The notes under the pieces were generated by a model. That model did no database searches and was not told where the DNA came from. It saw only the letters and a list, made by a program, of their open reading frames with translations. Both the position numbers and the translations under genes were made by a program. A stretch of DNA of 64,000 bases, from positions 62,001-126,000 of the IMG/VR virus record IMGVR_UViG_3300042889_001272; one strand, given 5' to 3'. This document shows, in pieces, positions 6,678 through 30,986 of this stretch (position 1 is the stretch's first letter; every line of letters starts with the position of its first letter). This DNA is from a virus.

Positions 6678-7619
6678 ATGACTACACAAAATTATCTCTG
6701 GGTTGAGAAGTATAGACCCGCCACTATTAAAGACTATGTTTGGATTAATCCTAGTCAAAAACTTATGGTCGAGGGCTGGGTTAAAGATAAAAATATTCCG
6801 CACTTGCTATTAAGCGGACCGCCTGGCACAGGAAAAACTACTTTAGCCAAAGTTCTATGCAATGAACTAGAAGTTCAAAAGGCGGACATCATGTTTATTA
6901 ATGCCAGTCACGAAACTGGTGTTGATAACCTGCGTGAGAAAGTCGGTAACTTCTGTCGCAGTATGAGCTTTGGTGACTTTCGTGTTATTATACTTGACGA
7001 GGCAGATTATCTAAGTCCTAATGCACAGGGTGTACTGCGTGGTATGTTAGAGCAGTACAGTAATGTAGCAAAGTTTATTCTAACTTGCAATATGCCACAT
7101 AAGGTCATGCCAGCGTTGCATAGTCGTTGTCAGGGGTTTAGTTTCAACAACTTAGATGAAACAGATTTTACAGTTAGATTAGGACAAATCCTAGCCGATG
7201 AAGGCTGTGACTTTGATGTAGACACGTTAACTAATTTTGTTAAAGCAACATATCCGGATCTGCGTAAAGCAATTAACACAGCGCAACAATACAGCCGCAG
7301 TGGTAAGTTAGAAATGCCAGGTGCTGGTCAAAGTACAGACAGCAGTGAGTGGAAGTTAGAAGCCATTGCGTTATTTCAAAATGGCAAAGTTAGACAAGCA
7401 CGTGAAATGATCTGTAAGAAAATTACATTAGAGGAATACGAAGAAGTTTATAAGTTCTTGTATCGTAATTTAGCGTTTTGGGGTGACGATGAAGACACAC
7501 AAGATGCAGCCATTATCATCATTAAAGAAGGAATGGTGAATCACAGTTTGTGTGCTGACCCTGAAATCAATTTAAGTGCTACTATTGTCAAACTAGACCG
7601 TATGCGCCGCGGATTATAA
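6678..7619 (+). CDS. 44: Sliding clamp loader ATPase (T4 gp44-like)
   Basis: AAA+ clamp-loader subunit that loads the gp45 clamp for gp43 polymerase. Walker A GPPGTGKT at 47-54, Walker B VIILDEAD at 103-110, sensor 1 TCN at 136-138 and the SRC arginine finger at 149-151 are present. The protein is 313 residues, close to T4 gp44 (319). It has its own promoter with the start codon at the predicted +1, so no ribosome binding site is present. The partner gp62 is not recognisable next to it, unlike in T4. Confidence 0.95.
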   Translation: MTTQNYLWVEKYRPATIKDYVWINPSQKLMVEGWVKDKNIPHLLLSGPPGTGKTTLAKVLCNELEVQKADIMFINASHETGVDNLREKVGNFCRSMSFGDFRVIILDEADYLSPNAQGVLRGMLEQYSNVAKFILTCNMPHKVMPALHSRCQGFSFNNLDETDFTVRLGQILADEGCDFDVDTLTNFVKATYPDLRKAINTAQQYSRSGKLEMPGAGQSTDSSEWKLEAIALFQNGKVRQAREMICKKITLEEYEEVYKFLYRNLAFWGDDEDTQDAAIIIIKEGMVNHSLCADPEINLSATIVKLDRMRRGL

Positions 7620-30484: not shown

Positions 30485-30499
30485 TAATTACTTTTAATT

Positions 30500-30960
30500 T
30501 ACACATATGTTTGATTAGCGATGGCTAATCCCTATTGAGGTTGTACAGATTGTGCTGTGCCGTCGGAGTCTTAGGTTGTGTACGTCAGGAACTAACGAAA
30601 GGTTCTAAAAGATTGCGGCTCTGTGAAAAAGATACAACCGCAGATATTCACAGTTTCGCTGTATGGGATTGTGGAGTCACCGCTGACAGTCAAGTCTTGA
30701 GTAAGGGGTACCGGTCAACCGCCTCTGTTTTAATTAAATCTCATCAATACAGTATGAAAACGAACTCACGAAATGTTTTTATTTTTTGCCGGTTAACGGC
30801 AAATTATGACTTGAATCTACGAAATATTAAACCAGTGTTAAATCAAAATTCAAAACAATAAAGAGAATAGAAAATTGTTTCGAATACGAAGTATGAAGAA
30901 ACAATGTGCAGAGCACATACTAAGATGCGTGTAATATATGGATAGTTACGACTATCAGAT
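30500..30960 (+). ncRNA. Candidate large structured non-coding RNA
   Basis: No convincing gene in about 500 bases, against near-complete coding elsewhere. Structures: GATTAGC/GCTAATC hairpin (30513-30530); H-type pseudoknot with TGCGG 30614-30618/CCGCA 30638-30642 and CTGTGAA 30621-30627/TTCACAG 30647-30653; TTTGCCG/CGGCAAA (30785-30803); ATTGTTTC/GAAACAAT (30874-30905) with inner ATAC/GTAT; GTGC/GCAC (30906-30916); GATAGT/ACTATC with TACG loop (30941-30956). A possible long-range closure is GGTTG 30539-30543 with CAACC 30716-30720. The late promoter of the next gene follows at once. It is not tRNA or tmRNA by its motifs; a large ornate phage RNA class (GOLLD/ROOL-like) or a new one is possible. 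Confidence 0.6.
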
Positions 30961-30965
30961 AAATA
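30958..30965 (+). promoter_or_regulatory. T4-type late promoter (GATAAATA)
   Basis: 22 bases before the fibre-like gene ATG at 30987, with AGGAG at 30977-30981. Confidence 0.65.
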
Positions 30966-30986
30966 TTCATAATTACAGGAGCTTTT

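Follow-up and report, generated by a model that had tools for sequence, protein, structure and literature searches.

The window analysed here, a stretch of 64,000 nucleotides, corresponds to bases 62001-126000 of a 235,561-base virus record. Its largest gap between open reading frames (30485-30986, 502 bases) separates a nucleosidase gene of the PNP_UDP family from a fibre-like gene, and is followed in size by gaps of 147, 125 and 107 bases. An earlier note, made from the letters of the window, had singled out this gap for its size and its hairpins, both of which we recovered, and had proposed that it encodes a large structured RNA. It had also taken the only reading frame in the gap, 30535-30861, to be spurious, and had named conservation of this frame as protein as evidence against an RNA. 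We looked for such conservation and it is absent. Substitutions in 11 close homologues show no preference for the third codon position (counts at positions 1/2/3 are 9/6/4 in L005, 18/15/16 in L015 and 15/11/16 in L020), and single-base indels disrupt the frame, e.g. in L015 and L021. The 108-residue ORF was rejected as a protein gene on these two grounds.

Taken alone, the sequence of the gap does not fold better than chance: its folding energy has z = -1.4, with 9 of 100 shuffles equally stable, and the opposite strand gives z = -2.2. Since the single-sequence fold was unconvincing, we turned to the homologues, from which the evidence for the predicted structure comes. A scan with the upstream nucleosidase gave 22 loci; in 13 of these the gap sequence is present, 81-100% identical over 425-502 nt.

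Structure of the conserved RNA

The RNA gene aligns with 11 relatives at 81-92% identity over 425-487 nt. Its features, numbered on the window, are as follows.

30500-30918, plus strand: RNA gene, approximate limits set by conserved helices, from the 5' helix strand to the terminal hairpin
30500-30582, plus strand: 5' domain, with outer helix UACACA (30500-30505)/UGUGUA (30577-30582)
30513-30530 and about 30544-30562, plus strand: two hairpins enclosed by the 5' outer helix
30588-30606, plus strand: hairpin GGAAC..GUUCU, loop UAACGAAAG; two pairs show compensatory changes
30614-30642, plus strand: helix PA with a conserved GAAAAAG loop, nearly invariant across lineages
30643-30678, plus strand: long hairpin PB, 13 pairs, 12 of them with two-sided changes
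30659-30664, plus strand: 5' strand of pseudoknot B, in the PB loop; pairs and covaries with 30747-30752
30682-30687, plus strand: 5' strand of pseudoknot A, the CCGUUGNN element; pairs with 30714-30719, 94.4% of cells paired
30698-30743, plus strand: helix PD, UGAG (30698-30701) with CUCA (30740-30743)
30705-30725, plus strand: block of highest conservation, GGGGUACCGGUCAACCGCCUC; contains helix PC and, at 30714-30719, the 3' strand of pseudoknot A
30747-30752, plus strand: 3' strand of pseudoknot B; pairs with 30659-30664
30765-30775, plus strand: twin loop 1, C[UC-ACGAAAU]G; word at 30768-30774, the same as in twin loop 2
30786-30802, plus strand: hairpin between the twin loops, with covarying pairs
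30814-30828, plus strand: twin loop 2, U[CU-ACGAAAU]A; word at 30819-30825
30874-30905, plus strand: 3' hairpin AUUGUUUC..GAAACAAU, enclosing a AUACGAAGUAU hairpin; the alignment of 12 sequences shows compensatory pairs
30904-30918, plus strand: terminal hairpin AUGUGCAGAGCACAU; in many relatives U runs follow the equivalent hairpin

The covariation for which the earlier note had called is present in the homologues, and strong. Among 12 close relatives RNAalifold predicts 118 pairs, 25 of them with compensatory change; in the 5' outer helix, for instance, C-G becomes U-A and A-U becomes U-A. We then have the wider evidence of 30 diverse members, in which a structure of 54 pairs is paired in 75.5% of cases against 68.0% in shuffled controls (0 of 500 as high), and in which sliding the partners by 1-3 columns brings pairing down to 40-54%. 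Two-sided changes occur in 35 of these 54 pairs; helix PD is paired at 98.3% and shows them at all four of its pairs. A mutual-information scan of 172 sequences (effective number 33) sees the helices and both pseudoknots, and its top Watson-Crick covarying pair, 30686-30715, belongs to pseudoknot A. This pseudoknot joins CCGUUGNN to the NNCAACCG of the conserved block, while pseudoknot B joins the loop of the long hairpin to a stretch 3' of helix PD. Alignment-free comparisons agree: for the PB hairpin region and the downstream stretch, the longest complement averages 7.9 bp within a member and 6.0 between members, and for pseudoknot A complements of at least 6 bp occur in 44% of comparisons within a member vs 19% between members.

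The covariance model R1, built from 30 sequences including the window copy, recognises 92 of 92 tested members, left-out lineages included (E from 1e-57 to 2e-9), and matches none of eight sources lacking an expected copy. It scores the window copy, itself among the 30, at 197 bits (E 6e-55). It is nearly certain that the gap holds a real structured non-coding RNA gene, and the members of the class share its two-pseudoknot core. The local details first described in the gap had mixed fates. The 7 bp of the H-type pseudoknot CUGUGAA/UUCACAG (30620-30654) can form in the window copy but in none of the other lineages tested. The hairpin with a GAUG loop keeps its stem in the relatives but not its loop. 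The RNA is about 420 bases long and ends near 30918, which leaves the last ~65 bases of the gap outside it; these include the UACG hairpin (30941-30956), whose stretch is the start of a downstream gene in relatives.

In L005 and L007, similar stretches of ~50 bases flank a gene for 188 amino acids between the RNA and the fibre-like gene (L005:6165-6218 and 6762-6829). The window has a single such stretch, at 30912-30981, and lacks the gene, as if recombination between repeats had removed it; the UACG hairpin lies inside this remnant.

Distribution of the class and its catalogued fragment

A search for AAGGGGTACNGGTCAACCGCC, the block of highest conservation, gave at least 120 viral stretches and no match in 84,980 prokaryote genomes. 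Relaxed pattern searches gave 32 stretches (some already known, two or three of them chance) and, in a further round, at least 120. A relaxed scan of prokaryote genomes gave 30 matches, all apparently by chance except L205, a genuine marine-type copy on a 7.5-kb contig of a Pacearchaeota MAG (ARS103), which is probably a misbinned contig of a marine phage. Three pattern matches, L153 (on a 561-kb contig), L162 and L167, were discarded as unsupported by the covariance model. In total, at least 289 loci carry a copy, with at least 225 distinct cores. The class is widespread in T4-like phages of fresh water and the sea that are represented by uncultured contigs. Five different members, used as blastn queries, had no match among 50,697 phage records. 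Nine loci have the nucleosidase with no RNA detected beside it (L006, L010, L014, L016-L019, L022, L023), and for L010, L014 and L019 the covariance model detects none in the records, which are 75-142 kb long.

In L005, L007 and L011 an insert splits the RNA from the nucleosidase, which suggests that the RNA is a unit of its own. Its neighbours vary, and the genes downstream differ in identity, many lying on the opposite strand. In most lineages the RNA stands between T4 gp46/gp47-like genes and portal or head genes, as identified by inspection of the sequences. At the 3' end of many members stands a hairpin resembling a terminator, with U after it. Immediately before the RNA in L021 we read TTGACT-16-TATAAT, a single match where shuffles average 1.4, and in the window copy no promoter stands above chance. 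The L021 match and the terminator-like ends fit a stand-alone gene; neither is proof of one.

Model R1 also reveals that this phage has a second, diverged copy of the RNA, located at record positions 217146-217381 (46.7 bits, E 1.6e-11) and absent from the 30 training sequences of the model. This copy (G000:C1:217146-217381 = L337:1501-1736) lies outside the window. The 142 bases immediately 5' of its core match the Rfam model of the Polynucleobacter-1 motif (RF01718) at 77.2 bits. In all six matching records (this second copy, G007, G011, G014, L142 and L149) the core follows Polynucleobacter-1 on the same strand, 8-33 bases downstream. Hence, Polynucleobacter-1 is the 5' domain that this larger RNA has in one of its clades, and the published range of the motif, Burkholderiales and fresh water or estuary, agrees with this. 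It had been judged a probable RNA and a probable cis-regulator ('cis-reg: y') by Weinberg et al. 2010 (PMC2864571). Yet, as catalogued it is a motif of 141 nt without the two-pseudoknot core, the twin loops and the 3' hairpins, and its model misses the window copy and most tested members. The window copy has no match to RF01718 either at the gathering score or at E <= 10, and most other records searched with both models have one copy of the core and no match to Polynucleobacter-1. That the gap belongs to a large class of phage RNAs, of which only the 5' domain of one clade had been catalogued before, is close to certain.

No Rfam model identifies the window copy, for which matches at E <= 10 are short and at chance level. 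The earlier suggestion of a large structured phage RNA is upheld by the strong covariation, and the RNA is probably an undescribed one; the association with GOLLD or ROOL is not upheld: the Rfam models of both fail to match the window copy or the other members tested, and we reject this identity. The RNA resembles these two in being a large, ornate, multi-pseudoknotted phage RNA of unknown function (PMC12286853). It differs from them in being smaller (about 420 nt) and in having another conserved core. We know of no report of twin identical words in ROOL or GOLLD. Group I and group II introns were also rejected, given the absence of an Rfam intron match and the position of the RNA between complete genes. 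The UGCGG..CCGCA hairpin with its GAAAAAG loop recalls a group I intron by resemblance alone; it has no model match and is not within a gene.

Identity of the twin loops

Two hairpins 3' of the conserved block flank a third one and carry 9-nt loops, made of UC plus a 7-nt word in the first and CU plus a word in the second. Within a member both loops carry one and the same word, which varies between members: ACGAAAU in the window, and elsewhere GGAUAAU, AGAUGAU, ACCACAG, AGCACAU, AAAUGAA, AACAAAA and others. Identity between equivalent positions of the two loops (X1[i]=X2[i]) gives the six highest covariation scores of the whole RNA, from 41 to 63, against 40 for the best Watson-Crick pair. It covers exactly seven positions and ends on both sides. 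A best-match search recovers it in 234 of 238 cases; with the flanks anchored, a member's own loops have at least 6 nt in common in 89% of lineages, vs 9% for loops compared across lineages. On the tree of the rest of the RNA the shared word changed about 39 times, a count made on a set of equal words pre-selected for at least 6 identical nt.

Loops that are identical rather than complementary, and that change together, suggest one partner read twice. A slowly evolving host RNA is a poor candidate for this partner, given that the word varies among close relatives. We found no complement of the word within the RNA or within 5 kb on either side, and no enrichment of complements at gene starts in nine phage genomes and the window. 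Among the nine genomes, the best family with an orthologous complement site includes six genomes, a number equalled in 3 of 30 permutations. Anticodon loops and box C/D-like motifs were set aside by reasoning, as their sequences do not fit the twin loops across lineages.

Candidate functions and their implications

We favour the view that the RNA is a stand-alone, trans-acting molecule showing its twin word to a fast-changing partner, and give it a probability of roughly 0.55. It is likely that the RNA works in trans as a bivalent recognition scaffold. Its compact core would hold both loops outward, and one partner, or two copies of a partner, would be gripped at two identical sites. The partner would change fast, as might a co-inherited RNA-binding protein or a host factor engaged in an arms race, and would not be a stable host RNA such as rRNA or tRNA. 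The RNA would be the whole unit, and the sigma-70-type promoter readable in L021 would suggest transcription early in infection by the host RNA polymerase. Several observations stand against this proposal: the two words of the second copy, [C/U]GACA[G/A]G, are identical at only five of seven positions and unlike the word of the window, no complement pointing to a partner was found, and the window copy has no promoter above chance.

The closest known logic may be that of boxB in the nutL and nutR sites of lambdoid phages, where two loops are alike within a phage, differ between phages, and are bound by one co-inherited protein. The boxB sites, however, lie in two separate transcripts and are bound by a short arginine-rich peptide, whereas both twin loops are within one compact RNA and no such protein was identified here. 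More tentatively, the twin word might be an address particular to each lineage, displayed twice to a partner that co-evolves rapidly, e.g. a decoy for a host-defence RNase or RNA-binding protein, or a tag telling self from rival phages. As the two copies carry different words (ACGAAAU and [C/U]GACA[G/A]G), one phage may field two specificities.

One might instead speculate that the RNA forms an oligomer or cage of RNA only, like GOLLD, ROOL and OLE, in which the twin words would serve to join one chain to another and not as sites for an external partner. These RNAs assemble through kissing loops, A-minor contacts and an A-A helix, and give a precedent for such assembly (PMC12286853); a large multi-pseudoknotted phage RNA with no known protein partner would suit it. 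But kissing loops require complementary loops, and the RNA contains no complement of the word; moreover, a contact between like chains would have to tolerate at least 22 different words. An unusual loop-loop contact within an oligomer could also keep the words alike, and yet we regard this alternative as unlikely.

Somewhat more doubtful is the idea that the RNA is homing cargo, travelling with a free-standing GIY-YIG endonuclease (SegE-type) that cuts genomes lacking the RNA, with the RNA serving to mark or shield the site. About 182 of the 289 loci have a GIY-YIG gene (Pfam SegE_GIY-YIG, PHROG 447) no more than 1.5 kb from the RNA, pointing in either direction; such a gene adjoins the RNA in most lineages, and the second copy of this phage directly follows one (216536-216955). 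Yet no such gene adjoins the RNA in the window or in the lineage of the window copy, the gene occurs in cultured phages without the RNA (R1, run without a positive control, found no match in five phages with the gene), and homing leaves the conserved fold and the twin words unexplained. The label 'NAD synthetase' of PHROG 447 looks like a mis-annotation, the Pfam family being SegE_GIY-YIG (loci L024-L330). In HEARO and OMEGA RNAs, too, a structured RNA adjoins a nuclease gene. Here, in contrast, the neighbour is a SegE-type GIY-YIG enzyme also found without the RNA, and no IscB, IsrB or TnpB was noted among the recurrent families of neighbours.

Finally, a cis-regulatory leader of the downstream gene, as held probable for Polynucleobacter-1 on the published 'cis-reg: y' (PMC2864571), would agree with the position of the RNA upstream of genes, but is very improbable, since the motif covers no more than the 5' part of it, no consistent same-strand gene follows (identity and often strand vary) and a terminator-like hairpin ends many members.

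These results turn an orphan Rfam entry of 141 nt into the 5' end of an RNA class of ~420 nt, of which only a small corner had been catalogued. The identity of the twin words is a covariation signal that tools seeking complementary pairs do not report. The words also offer a direct experimental handle, as one or both can be altered, or exchanged between lineages. Should the partner prove to be a host defence factor, the word would be a record of the arms race between these phages and their hosts.
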